A stretch of DNA of 37,660 nucleotides from Pacificibacter marinus (lineage in GTDB: Bacteria; Pseudomonadota; Alphaproteobacteria; Rhodobacterales; Rhodobacteraceae), in NCBI RefSeq assembly GCF_018860665.1, contig NZ_JAHKPK010000001.1, forward strand, positions 1 through 37,660, read 5' to 3'. This document shows positions 318-6,012 of the stretch, one piece after another. Below the pieces are notes generated by a model. That model worked only from the letters and a program-made list of their open reading frames with translations, was not told the origin of the DNA and made no database searches. The position numbers and the translations under genes are program-made. Numbering within the stretch: the stretch's first letter is position 1; each line of letters begins with the position of its first letter.

Positions 318-944
318 CTATCTATTGAGATGGAAGCGGCGATCAGTCTCCAGTAGCGCTTCTATAAAATCGCGCTCGGCGTCGAAATCATGCGGCACCT
401 GCGCAGCCGTGCGATTACCCGAGAGCGATTGGCTTTTAAAAAAATCAAAACCATAAAGCGAAACTTTAGACGCGCCCGATTTTCCAACAAGGTCAATGAC
501 CATACATCCAACCGAGGGCGGCGCACCAAGTATCGACTTTAGCGTTTGATTGCGATCCTGATTATTCAGATAGAACCGTGAAAACGCGATCATATGCCAG
601 CTGAGGCGCTTGCGTTTTGTTGGCATCCAGATCAACAGCTTGGGCGATCTGCTTCGGAGCTTGGTCAAAGAAACTCTCTTCGCCACGGCCATCCAATCCG
701 TTCGATTTCCATGTGACACAGCGGACGTGATAGGCGCGTCATTTAGGCGAATTACTATATCGTGCGCGTCTATAGCGCCCCCGAATTCCCGCTCCCTCAA
801 ACCGCGAGAATTGCCCACAATGGCCACTGTTTGATGCATCAAATCGTGGAAGAATTCATCTTGCGAAATTGAACAACTCGAAAGGAATTGCTCGCCAAAA
901 AGAGTTTTTCGAACCCAAAACAGTAATCTCTGCCCTACAATCAT
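318..944 (-). CDS. Glycosyltransferase family 29 (sialyltransferase-like) protein
   Basis: 208 aa. The region at residues 39-70 (TVAIVGNSRGL ... IDAHDIVIRLNDAP) matches the L-sialylmotif, which binds the CMP-sugar donor in GT29 enzymes. APPSVGCMVIDLV (about 141-153) resembles the S-motif, YGFDFF follows at 164-169, and a C-terminal H185...E190 pair resembles the VS motif. There is no signal peptide or membrane anchor, unlike the Golgi enzymes, so a cytoplasmic glycosyltransferase acting on a surface glycan is likely. It starts 3 nt after the stop of the PP-loop gene, so the two are probably co-transcribed and translationally coupled. No neuA/neuB-type sialic acid synthesis genes are visible, so the donor sugar is unknown. 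Family call fairly sure, substrate unknown. Confidence 0.75.
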   Translation of the reverse strand: MIVGQRLLFWVRKTLFGEQFLSSCSISQDEFFHDLMHQTVAIVGNSRGLREREFGGAIDAHDIVIRLNDAPITSAVSHGNRTDWMAVAKRVSLTKLRSRSPKLLIWMPTKRKRLSWHMIAFSRFYLNNQDRNQTLKSILGAPPSVGCMVIDLVGKSGASKVSLYGFDFFKSQSLSGNRTAAQVPHDFDAERDFIEALLETDRRFHLNR

Positions 945-947
945 GCC

Positions 948-2108
948 TCACCCATTCGCCTTTTTGCCGCGCAGATAGGCCTCAGCTTTGGTTTTTAGAC
1001 GGCCAATTCGTGTCTGCTTTTTCTTGCTAAAGAGCTTGTCTGAAATGATTTTAAAGTCATCCAAGCGCCCTGAAGCTCTGGCCAAATCTAAAACATCGAG
1101 AGAATATGCCACCTCACTAGGCTTTTGCATATCCAGAAAGCGAAGATCATTCGGATCAAATCCACTGATTAAGAATATATTGGGCATGCCCAAGCCCGCC
1201 GCATGAAACATTGCTTTCGTACGCACACATTTGGAGCAGGTTCCACAATTGTCTGGACGCACCGAATAGTTTTTACAGAATGAAAGAGTTTCCAGAGCAA
1301 GCCTATCATCAATGAGCTGGCGAAGCTTTTCGCCTCTCGTGACATCACTAGACAGCGTGTCAATGTGCATTCTGCATCCCTGAAACATTGGGTTGGTCAA
1401 ACAATTGGTCCCCCAAGGCAGCGTTAAATAATCCTGAGATGCTGGGTGATCAGCCGAAATGAGGCCAGCGCTATAAGTTGAATCAAAAAGAAAGAGGGTT
1501 GAGAACAGCTGGAAGCCATGCCCTATAGATGAAGAAATTCCAAATCTACGCATGATAGACGCCGCGTTTGACCGCACTTCAACATTCCGTTCAGAGTATT
1601 TTTCTCGGAAGCGGGAAGTCCGTTTTTTAAGCGCTTCAAAACGCTCAAAGTCTTCGCGTTTATAATCCATTCCATGAATTGTCAGCAAGTCTGGCTTTGG
1701 GTTCCCTTCCTCCACATATCGCTTGAGTGCGAAAGTAGAATCCACCCCTCCAGAGTACAGCATAAGAGCTTTATTTGTCGCGGCGGGCGGCGGCTTCACA
1801 TCTATAAAGCCATTTGAGACAACCTTTACAGGCTGGAAGGTTTTCGGCATCCATGCGGACCAAATGACCGACAGCAATTCCGCTTTCTCGCGCGCAATTG
1901 GAGAGGTCGCCCCATCAATTTGCAACTCTCCACCAAACCGCATTGCAATCGGCAACGCAGCCCATAAAGCGAAATCACAACTCGGGTCTATAAACTCGGA
2001 CAGCTCATAAAAAATCTCTCGCCCTCGAATAGACAGCGAAATCCTTTGAGTGTCAGAAGAAATGGAACTGACGGATACAATTGTCCGCCCCCCGCCGTTT
2101 ACTTGCAC
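948..2108 (-). CDS. PP-loop ATP-pyrophosphatase, QueC/ExsB-like, of unknown function
   Basis: About 386 aa. An N-terminal domain of about 110 residues without a recognised name precedes a PP-loop with SGGVDS near residues 119-124. This is the ATP-binding signature of the QueC/asparagine synthase/ThiI superfamily. A cysteine cluster near the C-terminal third (Cys at about 278, 288, 291 and 294, pattern CGTCSKC) matches the zinc site of QueC. The protein is much longer than QueC (about 230 aa) and lacks queuosine neighbours; queF lies 25 kb away. Related PP-loop proteins are often seen in polysaccharide and natural-product clusters, where they may activate a carboxylate or amidate a sugar (inference). 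A GTG at 2108 has GAGG eight bases upstream; the GTG at 2117 is an alternative start. It forms an operon with the GT29 gene. Confidence 0.7.
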   Translation of the reverse strand: MQVNGGGRTIVSVSSISSDTQRISLSIRGREIFYELSEFIDPSCDFALWAALPIAMRFGGELQIDGATSPIAREKAELLSVIWSAWMPKTFQPVKVVSNGFIDVKPPPAATNKALMLYSGGVDSTFALKRYVEEGNPKPDLLTIHGMDYKREDFERFEALKKRTSRFREKYSERNVEVRSNAASIMRRFGISSSIGHGFQLFSTLFLFDSTYSAGLISADHPASQDYLTLPWGTNCLTNPMFQGCRMHIDTLSSDVTRGEKLRQLIDDRLALETLSFCKNYSVRPDNCGTCSKCVRTKAMFHAAGLGMPNIFLISGFDPNDLRFLDMQKPSEVAYSLDVLDLARASGRLDDFKIISDKLFSKKKQTRIGRLKTKAEAYLRGKKANG

Positions 2109-2283
2109 AATACTCACCTCATTAAATGTATAAACTGACTTTCAAATAGCCAGAGCAAACCTTCTTGGCAACAAGTAGCTTGTAACCTTCACTGCCCCAC
2201 CAACCAAGTAAGCACGGACAGGCAAATAGGTGAGGACTTCCCGAAAAGCATCAAACTCAAAACGGGGGGTAAAATGGGGGATC

Positions 2284-2338: not shown

Positions 2339-2428
2339 TGGCGGAGACGAAGGGATTCGAACCCTCGAGACCCTTCCGGGCCTACTCCCTTAGCAGGGGA
2401 GCGCCTTCGACCACTCGGCCACGTCTCC
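2339..2428 (-). tRNA. tRNA-Ser (anticodon GCU)
   Basis: 90 nt including an encoded CCA (2339-2341). The acceptor arms GGAGACG and CGTCTCC pair perfectly. The D arm starts TGGCCGAGTGG, the anticodon loop reads CTGCTAA with anticodon GCT, a long class II variable arm follows, and the T arm contains GGTTCGAATCC. The 3' end faces the IS/GT29 accessory strip, a common integration geometry. No second copy of the tRNA 3' end was seen in the strip. Confidence 0.97.
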
Positions 2429-2533: not shown

Positions 2534-3544
2534 CTAAACATCGTAATAATCTTTGTACCAGTCCACGAACTTTGCGATGCCTTCTGGCACGGCGGTTTTT
2601 GGGGTGTAGCCTGTCAACGATTTCAGCAGGTCTGCGTTGGCCCAAGTGGCGGGCACATCGCCGGCTTGCATGGGCATCAGGTTGCGTTTGGCGGTCTTGC
2701 CTGTGGCGGCTTCGATGGCTTCGATAAAATCGACCAGTTGCACAGCGTCTGAGTTGCCGATGTTGACCACACGATGCGGCGCGACAGGGGACAGGCTGTC
2801 GCCCGTCGCCACAATGCCATCTTCTGGGCGCACAGGCGGGGTGTCGATCAGAAGGCGAATGGCATGGACAAGGTCTTCGACATAGGTGAAGTCGCGCTTC
2901 ATGTCGCCGTGATTGTAGACATCGATCGGGGTGTCTTCGAGAATGGCTTTGGTGAACTTGAACAGCGCCATATCGGGCCGCCCCCATGGGCCGTAAACGG
3001 TGAAGAACCGGAACATGGTGATCGGCAGATCAAACAAATGCGCGTAGGAATGCGCCATGTTTTCGGTCGATTTCTTGGTCGCGGCATAGAACGACATCTG
3101 GTGATCTGCTTTGTCGGTTTCGGCATAGGGCATCTGGGTGTTGGCGCCAAAAGCAGACGATGTGGACGCCAGCAACATGTGCTCGGGCGGGTAGGCGCGC
3201 GCTGCCTCGAGCAACTCAAACGTGCCGATGATGTTGCTTTCCAAATAGGAGCGCGGGTTCTCGATCGAATAGCGCACGCCCGCTTGGGCCGCGAGATGCA
3301 CAACGACATCAGGTTTTTCATCGGCAAACAGCGACATCAAGAGATCAGGCGTCTCAACCTTATCTTCAACAAAGCGATAGTTTTCGGATTGCAAAAGCTG
3401 CGCATTGCGGCGCTCTTTTAGGGCCACGTCATAGTAATCAGACATGCAATCGACACCGATCACGCGAAATCCATCGTCCAGGAGGCGGCGACAAACGAAA
3501 GAGCCGATAAAGCCGGCCGAGCCGGTGACAAGTGCTGTACGCAT
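2534..3544 (-). CDS. UDP-glucuronate 4-epimerase (NAD-dependent epimerase/dehydratase)
   Basis: 336 aa from the ATG at 3544, which has AAGGAC eight bases upstream; a longer in-frame extension lies inside the upstream gene and is rejected. The N-terminal Rossmann motif is GSAGFIGSF (8-16). The catalytic SDR triad is visible as Ser/Thr at 128-130 and Tyr153-x3-Lys157. The sequence has the character of UDP-glucuronate 4-epimerases, which convert UDP-glucuronate to UDP-galacturonate for capsule or LPS. It sits 16 nt downstream of ugd, which makes its substrate, and the pair gives UDP-Glc to UDP-GlcA to UDP-GalA. Confidence 0.88.
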   Translation of the reverse strand: MRTALVTGSAGFIGSFVCRRLLDDGFRVIGVDCMSDYYDVALKERRNAQLLQSENYRFVEDKVETPDLLMSLFADEKPDVVVHLAAQAGVRYSIENPRSYLESNIIGTFELLEAARAYPPEHMLLASTSSAFGANTQMPYAETDKADHQMSFYAATKKSTENMAHSYAHLFDLPITMFRFFTVYGPWGRPDMALFKFTKAILEDTPIDVYNHGDMKRDFTYVEDLVHAIRLLIDTPPVRPEDGIVATGDSLSPVAPHRVVNIGNSDAVQLVDFIEAIEAATGKTAKRNLMPMQAGDVPATWANADLLKSLTGYTPKTAVPEGIAKFVDWYKDYYDV

Positions 3545-3560
3545 TTGAGAAGTCCTTAGA

Positions 3561-4727
3561 TCAGTCCGCGCCAAACAGGTCACGGGTAAAGATTTTATTG
3601 GTGACGTCTGAAATATCATCCGTGACGCGGTTGGCGACGATCACATCGACCTCGGCCTTAAATGCTTCCAGATCGTTCACCACACGCGAGCCAAAGAAAT
3701 CGGGATCCGTCATCACCGGTTCATAAACGATGACCTCGATGCCCTTGGCCTTGATCCGTTTCATGATGCCTTGGATTGATGATTGGCGGAAATTGTCGGA
3801 CCCCGCTTTCATCACCAGCCTGTAGACGCCCACGATTTTCGGTTTGCGGGCGATGATTTGATCGGACAGAAAATCTTTGCGGGTGCGGTTGGCGTCGACG
3901 ATGGCGCGGATCAAGTTTTGCGGCACTTCGGAATAGTTTGCCAGCAATTGCTTGGTGTCTTTGGGCAGGCAATAGCCGCCGTAACCAAAACTCGGATTGT
4001 TGTAATGCGCGCCGATGCGCGGATCCAAACCGATGCCCTCGATGATCTGTTTGCTGTCCATGCTGCCGGCCATCGCATAACTGTCGAGTTCGTTGAAAAA
4101 CGCCACGCGCATGGCCAGGTAAGTGTTGGCAAACAGCTTGATTGCCTCGGCCTCATCGGGATCCGTAAACAACACATCCACGTCTTTTTTGATCGCCCCT
4201 TGTAGCAGCAAATCCGCAAAGACCTTTGCGCGATCTGAACGCTCGCCGACGATGATCCGGCTGGGATAAAGGTTGTCGTAAAGCGCACGGCCCTCGCGCA
4301 AGAACTCAGGACTAAAGATCACCTGAGTGGTGTCGTATTCGTCGCGAATACGATTAACGAAGCCAACAGGAACGGTGGATTTGACCACAATCGTAGCCGT
4401 TTCATTGACGGACACGACCAGATTAATAACCTGCTCAACCAATGAGGTGTCAAAGTAATTGGTCTCGGCATCATAGTTCGTCGGCGCCGCGACAATCACG
4501 AAATCAGCGTCTTTATACGCCGCAGCCCCGTCCAAAGTCGCGCTTAGACGTAGCTCTTTTTCGGCCAAAAACTGTTCAAGCTCAGCATCCACAATCGGAC
4601 TCTTGCGCGCATTGAGCATCTCAACGCGCTCAGGTGAGATATCAACTGCAACAACATCATTGTGCTGTGCCAAAAGAACAGCATTCGATAGGCCAACATA
4701 GCCAATTCCTGCAACAGCGATTTTCAT
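3561..4727 (-). CDS. ugd: UDP-glucose 6-dehydrogenase
   Basis: 388 aa, the exact length class of the short enterobacterial Ugd. It has an N-terminal NAD-binding motif [11 protein letters not shown] (6-16), the central helix [20 protein letters not shown] with Lys197, and the catalytic cysteine Cys253 in [10 protein letters not shown]. The enzyme oxidises UDP-glucose twice to UDP-glucuronate, which feeds the epimerase encoded directly downstream. It acts in the cytoplasm in surface-polysaccharide precursor supply. Confidence 0.95.
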
Positions 4728-4846
4728 AGGTTATCCATTTCAACTTAGCGCACGTCTTCCAAAACCTCTCTAGCTGCATCACGCTAGATCCGCTAGCCTG
4801 GTCCGCCAAGCTTCAAAACTCAGAACCCCTCATTACGAAAATCATT

Positions 4847-5545
4847 CTATTGACCAGTCCGAAGCACCATAACTTTAACGGTTTGAAAGATGATCGAAAT
4901 GTCTTTCCAAAACGAGACACGCGAGACATATTGCAAATCAATCTGAACGCGTTCAGCATATGAAATCGAATTACGGCCAGAGACTTGCCAAGGGCCCGTC
5001 ACGCCTGGACGCACTGACAATACAGCATCTGCGGCTTCTTGATACTGAGAGCTGATTTCTTCCATTGTGACCGGACGTGGGCCAACAATGGACATCTCGC
5101 CTTTGAATACATTGAAGAACTGGGGCAACTCATCGATCGATGTTTTGCGTAGTAATGCACCAAGACGTGTAATTCTAGGATCTTTTTCCAGCTTAAAGTC
5201 TGTTAGCCAAGCCGCTTTTTCAGCAGGGTTGCTTTCCAAATATTCGAGCAACTTTACATCTGCATCAGCCACCATCGTGCGAATTTTCCAGCACTTGAAT
5301 TGACGCCCATCCTTGCCAACACGTTTGTGGCCAAAGAACAGTGAACCACCGTCAGACTTAATGAACGGCGCAACAATGCACAGCAATACTATGACGAATG
5401 GAGCAACGAGAAGCGTGAAAATAATATCAAACATGCGTTTAGAGATCATGGAGGTGATAGTGATCAAAGTGCTTTGCGTTTCGAAACGAGCTGCACCCTT
5501 AAACGTGTCGCGCTCGCCAGAAATGTTAGTCGAAATATGTGCCAT
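4847..5545 (-). CDS. Priming sugar-phosphate transferase (undecaprenyl-phosphate glycose phosphotransferase)
   Basis: 232 aa from the ATG at 5545, preceded by GGAG at good spacing. A GTG at 5629 would add 28 unconserved-looking residues. One hydrophobic segment (about residues 39-60) precedes a cytoplasmic bacterial sugar transferase domain with RVGKDG, FKCWKIRTM, DELPQFFNVFKGEMSIVGPRP and RPGVTGPWQVSGR. These are the hallmark blocks of the WbaP/ExoY/RfbP C-terminal domain. The enzyme transfers a sugar-1-phosphate to undecaprenyl phosphate at the inner membrane, the first step of a polysaccharide repeat unit. It is followed by ugd and the epimerase, consistent with a uronic-acid-containing glycan. 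Exact sugar unknown. Confidence 0.88.
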   Translation of the reverse strand: MAHISTNISGERDTFKGAARFETQSTLITITSMISKRMFDIIFTLLVAPFVIVLLCIVAPFIKSDGGSLFFGHKRVGKDGRQFKCWKIRTMVADADVKLLEYLESNPAEKAAWLTDFKLEKDPRITRLGALLRKTSIDELPQFFNVFKGEMSIVGPRPVTMEEISSQYQEAADAVLSVRPGVTGPWQVSGRNSISYAERVQIDLQYVSRVSFWKDISIIFQTVKVMVLRTGQ

Positions 5546-6012
5546 CGAATTACTCCAAGTCCTATCGAAAGTTCTTACATCAAGTGTTGAACTATAATTG
5601 CAACTACCACACTCATATGTCGAGTTCACCTACCTGTTAGCAAATTATTAACTCTTCTGGTGTCTTTTTTTGCGAAACTTTTTTGTAGTTTACGTTAAGG
5701 CACTGAAAACGAACAAAAGACCATTATTGGACCTTAACAACCATGAGGCGATTTGTTTAATTATTGGGCAACAGGCGAACTTTATCCTTACATTAACCAA
5801 AGTTAGTCGCGATTCGTTTCATGTTTATATCGAGCAGCCACATAACAACAACTCTGGAATTCCCGACTTGACCACATGGCATCAAGAATTGCTTGCGCTT
5901 TTTCTTTTTGAACAAAAGCCACAACGGATCATTACCGCCATAGATCAGTCAGCCCACTGTCGATAAGGTCGCGACAAATGCGCAGGCTGCGCCCAGAATA
6001 GAGTACTATAAG
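5546..6012. other. Divergent intergenic region, no supported gene
   Basis: AT-rich stretch between the priming transferase (minus) and the aldehyde dehydrogenase (plus). It must hold promoters for both. A TTG-started frame across 5670-5966 (98 codons) has no homology that I recognise and no convincing ribosome binding site. No repeat or strong hairpin was seen. Confidence 0.5.

Follow-up and report, generated by a model that had tools for sequence, protein, structure and literature searches.

A distant QueC-like PP-loop gene and a GT29 glycosyltransferase gene in Pacificibacter marinus form a recurrent but loose pair that may modify acidic sugars of the LPS core

The stretch of DNA analysed here (the window) comprises positions 1 to 37,660 of contig NZ_JAHKPK010000001.1 of Pacificibacter marinus and carries, near the contig edge, two intact minus-strand genes that encode in reading order a PP-loop protein distantly resembling QueC and QatC and a small sialyltransferase-like glycosyltransferase of family GT29 (Table 1). 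A preliminary description made from the letters alone had placed the two genes 3 nt apart, and the two open reading frames (ORFs) and the spacer between them bear this out; the genes are probably co-transcribed. Within the PP-loop gene, a second GTG at position 2108 would give a protein of 386 aa, and since GAGGTGA sits 5 nt upstream of it this codon is the likelier and probably the true start, in agreement with the end at 2108 adopted in the preliminary description. As set out below, the association of PP-loop and GT29 genes is real and recurrent but loose, and its parts are of known kinds. Our search of the open-access literature found no description of this PP-loop family or of its association with GT29.

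The profile match and sialylmotifs L, S and VS point to the 208-aa protein as a bacterial GT29, the identity that had been proposed for it. Pfam family PF00777 matches residues 30-87 with a score of 48.5 bits (cut-off 23), and a profile built from 21 bacterial GT29 sequences matches the solved sialyltransferase 2wnb (E=6.4e-12) in an alignment that ends at 'LYGF' of motif S. Invariant across these 21 sequences are G44, R66, N68, G79 and T82 of motif L and G146, G165, F166 and F168 of motif S. H185 and E190, which lie beyond the end of the 2wnb alignment, are invariant as well (21/21), and we take them to be motif VS from its definition as H-x4-E; the GT29 sialyltransferases represented by 2wnb have motifs L and S and H-x4-E in common with the window protein. 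Nothing clear was seen by eye for motif III in the 21-sequence alignment. Bacterial GT29 proteins were reported in 2018 by Petit et al. (PMC5811610), with 19 of 23 bacterial sequences from Alphaproteobacteria and Loktanella named among the sources, and the available text of that report gives no tested function for them.

Its partner looks like QueC-type machinery, yet appears to be neither QueC nor QatC nor WbpG. The SGGVDS loop of ATP-pyrophosphatases starts at residue 122 and a zinc-type motif is formed by C281, C291, C294 and C297, as expected from the QueC-like ATP site and zinc cysteines that had been described, and the N-terminal domain of this protein (about 115 aa) is common to the whole family, with W86, W89 and P91 present in 84-93% of 58 relatives. 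In the suggested check against PP-loop and QueC profiles, the QueC profile PF06508 scores 15.3 bits, below its cut-off of 22. All 13 relatives from a motif-free search with the whole protein (set A1) keep G124, D126, S127, R261, K264 and the four cysteines; across the 58 relatives of a larger set (A4), the GG of the ATP loop, D126, K264 and the four cysteines are invariant. The x9 spacing of the zinc motif occurs in 11/13 and 54/58 relatives of the two sets, and x8 in 2/58. Since NCGxCxKC served as the search pattern that retrieved set A4, part of the cysteine conservation seen there follows from the search itself, and A1 alone is independent evidence for the zinc motif.

Among PDB entries, QatC gives the strongest profile match (9vlk, E=0.0027), confined to short segments in the ATP loop and zinc region, and weaker ones are an archaeal GMP synthase (E=0.02), a 'nitrile synthetase' (9lei, E=0.12) and QueC (E=0.73); an hhalign comparison of the family with seven QatC proteins spans 355 columns at probability 87. 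With QueC the window protein shares an SGGxDS loop and a C-terminal four-cysteine zinc-type motif, and with QatC of the Qat anti-phage system an N-terminal domain ahead of a QueC-like core, while WbpG-type N-sugar amidotransferases are PP-loop enzymes of surface polysaccharide synthesis. We nevertheless set it apart from all three because several of their motifs are absent: a motif search of the window protein found no YxQxHxxE, VPxRN, YPDC or C(x)8CxxCxxC, no Cx19CGxCxxRR as in QatC and no CxxC(x)6CxC as in WbpG (motifs, including the WbpG cysteines, as given in the available text of PMC13329287). It further differs from QueC in the x9 instead of x8 spacing, in the N-terminal domain and in falling below the Pfam cut-off. 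The NCBIfam models match it at E>=0.03 only (argG-related, Dph6, LarE); neither the QatC model NF041925, which matches 2/58 relatives (best E=0.0038), nor any other NCBIfam or PADLOC model reaches E<=0.01. DUF6395 (PF19932) weakly matches 11/58 relatives (best 3.7e-5), over the zinc motif in the four members read individually, and does not match the window protein at E<=0.01. Among viral contigs, no relatives were found.

Neighbours of the PP-loop family are not confined to GT29. Relatives of the PP-loop protein occur in 15 and GT29 in 51 of 394 Rhodobacteraceae genomes, and a wider contig scan with the pattern NCGxCxKC[VML][RQ] confirmed at least 508 PP-loop relatives, of which the best 80 of 508 were kept; because the scan pattern contained the motif, its conservation in these 80 is given by construction. 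The neighbourhood counts cover the 87 loci that remain when 11 near-duplicates (10 from Psychrobacter and L170) are removed from the 98 where a PP-loop gene was called, with the GT29 genes of L050 and L097 added by hand; left out were L088, L123, L124, L135, L150 and L162, which have a six-frame match and no called gene, and L066, which has no profile match. In 22/87 loci the next gene encodes a PF04230-type polysaccharide pyruvyl transferase (PYR), whereas 1000 within-locus shuffles gave 5.9 such loci on average and 13 at most. Nineteen of these 22 pairs lie on the same strand, and they include cyanobacteria, Campylobacterota, Chloroflexota, Psychrobacter and Azospirillum. A gene counts as PYR here if it matches a profile that we built by iteration from four seeds, of which three carry a pyruvyl-transferase family annotation; PF04230 itself matched 9/90 and 4/69 neighbours at E<=1e-6.

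GT29 is found in 5/87 PP-loop loci and is the next gene in 5/5 (shuffle mean 0.8, maximum 4). Besides the window these are L096 from a Rhodobacteraceae metagenome-assembled genome (MAG), L097 from Limimaricola litoreus, L050 from genome G051 and L098 from a Verrucomicrobiaceae MAG, which refutes the possibility, raised in the preliminary description, that homologues of the two genes are never neighbours elsewhere. The GT29 of L050 is divergent (E=2e-12 with a profile built without it), and that of L098 is separated from the PP-loop gene by about 1.5 kb in which no gene was called. GT29 and the PP-loop gene converge in L096, L097 and L050. Four of the five loci also have PYR nearby: it touches GT29 in both L096 and L097, the distance between them is 1.2 kb in L050, and a single 723-aa ORF (L098:6248-8416) combines a GT29 domain with a PF04230 domain. 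GT29, PYR and PP-loop genes thus form a loose triad. On the PP-loop tree, GT29-bearing rows stand at three places, and separating them from PYR-bearing rows needs three changes, forced by well-supported branches (five GT29-labelled against 23 PYR-labelled rows, with 64 unlabelled rows left out); either three gains or a single gain with two losses could account for this. The nearest PP-loop relative by tree path, L095, is labelled uncultured Loktanella and has no GT29 on its 5.9-kb contig. In close relative L105, KdsA and KdsB-KdsC genes begin 1.1 and 2.0 kb downstream (matches above curated cut-offs), and close relative L142 has MsbA upstream, likewise above cut-off, together with two weak matches of Kdo-kinase type, where Kdo denotes 3-deoxy-D-manno-oct-2-ulosonic acid. 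These members of the close PP-loop clade would suit a function in LPS.

The window GT29 belongs to a subfamily with its own operon context. A search with this protein divides the GT29 proteins at E=1e-30 into type I (36 genomes, with G386 counted here although its match is broken in two) and type II (15 genomes, about 30% identical to the window GT29). The 20 neighbourhoods that we read, most of them belonging to best matches, come from 19 of the 51 GT29-bearing genomes; 19 of the neighbourhoods, from 18 genomes, are type I and one (L086) is type II. The GT29 genes of L050, L068, L073, L078, L079, L081 and L097 were located by six-frame search, and for the touching or overlapping genes of L068, L073, L080, L096 and L097 the neighbour was read as upstream from strand and coordinates. 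Directly upstream of the 19 type I genes lies PYR in six cases, in ten a GT4 glycosyltransferase gene (one on the opposite strand) that may be LpcC-like, and neither in three, with asd downstream in 13/19. In 4/6 PYR-linked loci, and again in L097, PYR is preceded by KdtA, which transfers Kdo to lipid IVA; the KdtA matches of L069 and L097 have NCBIfam E<=1e-65 and lie below curated cut-offs. A second type I GT29 gene of the host, on contig C16 (L067), overlaps a PYR gene and has asd after it. The GT4-linked genes group in a single clade of the GT29 tree (23 rows, support 95/99). The window GT29, whose branch is long, falls outside this clade, as do the six PYR-linked and two other PP-loop-paired type I genes; because the 12-row remainder includes the type II outgroup, it is not established as a clade. 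Type II genes lie <=2.8 kb from NeuB in 8/15 genomes (G041, G049, G052, G070, G134, G202, G284 and G375) and are likely to encode nonulosonate transferases. The type I genes differ from the GT29 proteins described by Petit et al. in the available text (PMC5811610) in their lipopolysaccharide (LPS)-core-type operons and the rarity of NeuB.

This division bears on the sugar donor. NeuB is encoded by 119/394 genomes overall, by 3/36 type I genomes, fewer than expected (Fisher p=0.002), and by 11/15 type II genomes, where it is enriched (p=0.0006). Since type I genomes rarely encode NeuB, type I GT29 seems independent of it and the cytidine monophosphate (CMP)-activated sugar CMP-Kdo is the likelier donor; CMP-Kdo is present in LPS-making cells, and Kdo is a normal LPS sugar. 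The preliminary description had found no CMP-sialate genes and had argued from this for an unusual donor. Their absence holds for the window and not for the genome, where contig C27 encodes NeuB together with a NeuA/KdsB-family cytidylyltransferase, and because of these genes and of the normal occurrence of Kdo in LPS the argument for an unusual donor falls. The C27 genes lie in one run (C27:1-10313, L181) with NeuB, a NeuD-like gene, the NeuA-type gene (CTP_transf_3), three Gfo/Idh-type oxidoreductases and a short-chain dehydrogenase/reductase, names other than NeuB and CTP_transf_3 being read by eye, and this run is probably the CMP-nonulosonate cluster of the host. A plant precedent for the Kdo donor is RCKT1, a GT29 that is needed for Kdo in rhamnogalacturonan II and proposed to be a CMP-Kdo transferase, with plant pectin as its acceptor, in the available text of PMC11288761.

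We tentatively favour, at somewhat less than an even chance, that the GT29 adds an ulosonate, most likely Kdo, to the LPS core and that the PP-loop enzyme activates a carboxylate there as an adenylate and converts it to an amide. This reading builds on the motifs, the gene spacing, the recurrent pairing, the LPS-core-type context of type I GT29 and the PYR context of the PP-loop family; donor, acceptor and amidation are inferred, as are co-transcription and acquisition of the pair. Judged from the operon context, what the GT29 moves onto the LPS core would be an ulosonic acid, most probably Kdo donated by CMP-Kdo. Its partner, an ATP-pyrophosphatase akin to QueC and QatC, would act on the same acidic core, most likely by adenylating the carboxylate of an ulosonate, a pyruvate ketal or a uronate. 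Ammonia or an amine would then attack the adenylated carboxylate, giving an amide and a lower surface charge. Carboxylate chemistry of this kind, amidation or nitrile formation, is plausible by distant homology, and QueC itself amidates a carboxylate using ammonia according to the available text of PMC13329287. More generally, though rather doubtfully, the PP-loop proteins could represent a novel QueC-like ligase family acting on the carboxylates of ketal-type acids in surface glycans, with type I GT29 proteins being Kdo transferases; the substrates would be the pyruvate ketals formed by PF04230 enzymes and the ulosonates that GT29 attaches. That PF04230 enzymes and GT29 both put a carboxylate-bearing quaternary ketal carbon on a sugar chain would account for the pairing of one PP-loop family with either GT29 or PYR.

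Several observations weigh against these proposals. S127 of the ATP loop, Ser in the window protein, is Ser in 39/58 relatives, Ala in 16/58 and Gly in 3/58, and homology to QueC and QatC is weak even for the best PDB match. No amidotransferase gene lies between the insertion sequence and the sugar epimerase gene, the remaining genome not having been searched for one. The PP-loop gene stands beside GT29 in just 2/15 of the PP-loop-bearing genomes among the 394, close PP-loop relatives L095, L109 and L112 lie amid housekeeping genes (assigned by eye, for L109 partly by Pfam), and the PP-loop-paired GT29 genes are scattered on the GT29 tree (three changes for three rows, with 500/500 shuffles as low). 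Taking one genome per genus still leaves shared ancestry in the NeuB counts, and the NeuB of the host leaves room for a sialate-like donor. A threonine amide may occur in Rhodobacter sphaeroides LPS. Within the open-access literature, none of the papers listed for amidated Kdo or pyruvate ketals covered the whole subject, and we found nothing joining QueC, PP-loop proteins and a polysaccharide amidotransferase, pyruvyl transferase and 7-cyano-7-deazaguanine synthase with LPS, or alphaproteobacterial GT29 with LPS. The available text of a 2026 survey of the QueC family (PMC13329287) contains no word beginning with 'polysaccharide' or 'glyco', and WbpG is the glycan link found in it.

The room left by NeuB would be filled if the GT29 were a true sialyltransferase-like enzyme using the CMP-nonulosonate made by the C27 genes, with the PP-loop enzyme acting on that sugar. 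We consider this unlikely: NeuB and a NeuA-type cytidylyltransferase are indeed encoded together in the host, type II GT29 genes adjoin NeuB, and the lipooligosaccharide core of Loktanella rosea consists of two Kdo and one neuraminic acid only, the latter borne on Kdo, in the available text of PMC3210612, but the window GT29 is type I, 33/36 type I genomes have no NeuB match, and PYR, GT4, asd and KdtA surround the gene in the type I loci examined. The order of events could also be reversed, as in the pathway of the preliminary description, so that the PP-loop enzyme first modifies a free or CMP-activated acid that GT29 then transfers. The 3-nt spacing and the recurring adjacency would fit such a sequence, as does a co-occurrence of PP-loop relatives and type I GT29 slightly above expectation (4 genomes, Fisher p=0.04); what makes it improbable is that these 4 are among 36 type I genomes, leaving 32/36 without a PP-loop relative, that 82/87 PP-loop loci show no GT29, and that the convergent genes of L050, L096 and L097 share no operon. 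The same counts, together with PYR as next gene in 22 loci, speak against a dedicated two-enzyme system. Motifs and coupling of the preliminary description stand and its donor argument does not, and its chemistry may be called a reasonable guess; as a whole it is partly supported.

Different chemistry of the PP-loop enzyme is less probable still. If it were a QatC/Cap9-type conjugator, it would attach 7-deazaguanine or an analogue to a protein terminus or a glycan, for which the QatC profile match and the hhalign alignment speak. A deazaguanine substrate is disfavoured, however, because in the host genome (95% complete) nothing matches QueD and no QueC match reaches the cut-off, so that the known route for de novo synthesis of 7-carboxy-deazaguanine is missing; many family members have glycan genes as neighbours, and the window protein lacks YxQxHxxE, VPxRN and YPDC, so that we regard such conjugation as very improbable. 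The sole QueC-profile match in the host genome (G000:C11:70639-70743) is below cut-off, and the idea that the PP-loop protein stands in for a lost QueC was rejected, since QueD is missing as well. It is similarly hard to credit that the enzyme proceeds from amide to nitrile like QueC: we know of no nitrile-bearing LPS, and the entry named nitrile synthetase matches weakly, at 24 positions around the ATP loop only, although QueC provides a precedent for the chemistry (available text of PMC13329287). Finally, PP-loop and GT29 genes might be chance neighbours without common function on a mobile segment. The insertion sequence at the edge, the tRNA-Ser gene, a GC content of 0.478 for the pair segment compared with 0.528 for the rest (3/112 counting windows are equally low) and the lack of any close relative of the PP-loop gene among the other 19 genomes of the genus that were searched would all suit this explanation; adjacency in four more loci, with other gene order and at three places of the PP-loop tree, makes it quite unlikely.

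Returning to the locus, the segment with the pair between the tRNA-Ser gene and the insertion sequence is likely an acquired island. A stretch 100% identical to the insertion sequence end begins four other contigs of the host genome (C36, C7, C64 and C26) and is found elsewhere, and no attachment-site repeat of the tRNA-Ser end was found within the window. Among the 20 genus genomes searched, a close PP-loop gene is present in the host only, and one other genome has a 26%-identical relative. No PYR gene adjoins the PP-loop gene in the window, whose contig stops at the insertion sequence, so that the contig end hides anything beyond, any PYR gene included. Elsewhere in the PP-loop family, distant relatives on haloarchaeal plasmids (L092, L093) adjoin ATP-grasp or carboxylate-amine ligase genes near sugar genes, and on Gloeothece plasmids (L089, L090) PYR and PP-loop genes lie beside glycosyltransferase genes, with large nonribosomal peptide synthetase genes farther off. 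At least two neighbouring PP-loop matches per locus are seen in L116, L122, L133, L142, L145, L155, L159 and L057, where one copy is apparently split.

Table 1. Features of the PP-loop/GT29 locus in the window.
Feature	Position	Strand	Basis or remark
Multicopy insertion sequence end at contig edge	1..178	+	Identical stretches in other contigs
GT29 (sialyltransferase-like) glycosyltransferase, type I subfamily	318..944	-	208 aa, ATG start; PF00777 E=1e-12
H185-x4-E190, resembling sialylmotif VS	375..392	-	Invariant 21/21
Sialylmotif S region, aa 142-168 (PPSVG...LYGFDF)	441..521	-	Profile alignment to 2wnb through LYGF
Sialylmotif L region, aa 40-85 (VAIVGNSRGL...DIVIRLN)	690..827	-	phmmer to 2wnb; invariant residues
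3-nt spacer, PP-loop stop to GT29 start	945..947	-	Gap read as TGA GGC ATG
PP-loop protein, distant QueC/QatC relative	948..2117	-	389 aa, GTG start
Cx9CGxCxKC zinc-type motif, aa 281-297 (C281, C291, C294, C297)	1227..1277	-	Motif search
SGGVDS ATP-pyrophosphatase loop, aa 122-127	1737..1754	-	Motif search
tRNA-Ser (GCT), upstream side of pair; possible island insertion site	2339..2428	-	ARAGORN
NAD-dependent sugar epimerase, UDP-glucose dehydrogenase family, bacterial sugar transferase (surface glycan genes)	2534..5629	-	Pfam

The division of bacterial GT29 proteins into a KdtA- and PYR-linked type I and a NeuB-linked type II gives a direct prediction of their donors. If it is true that the PP-loop family amidates acidic glycans, its members would provide a widespread means to tune the charge of the bacterial surface.

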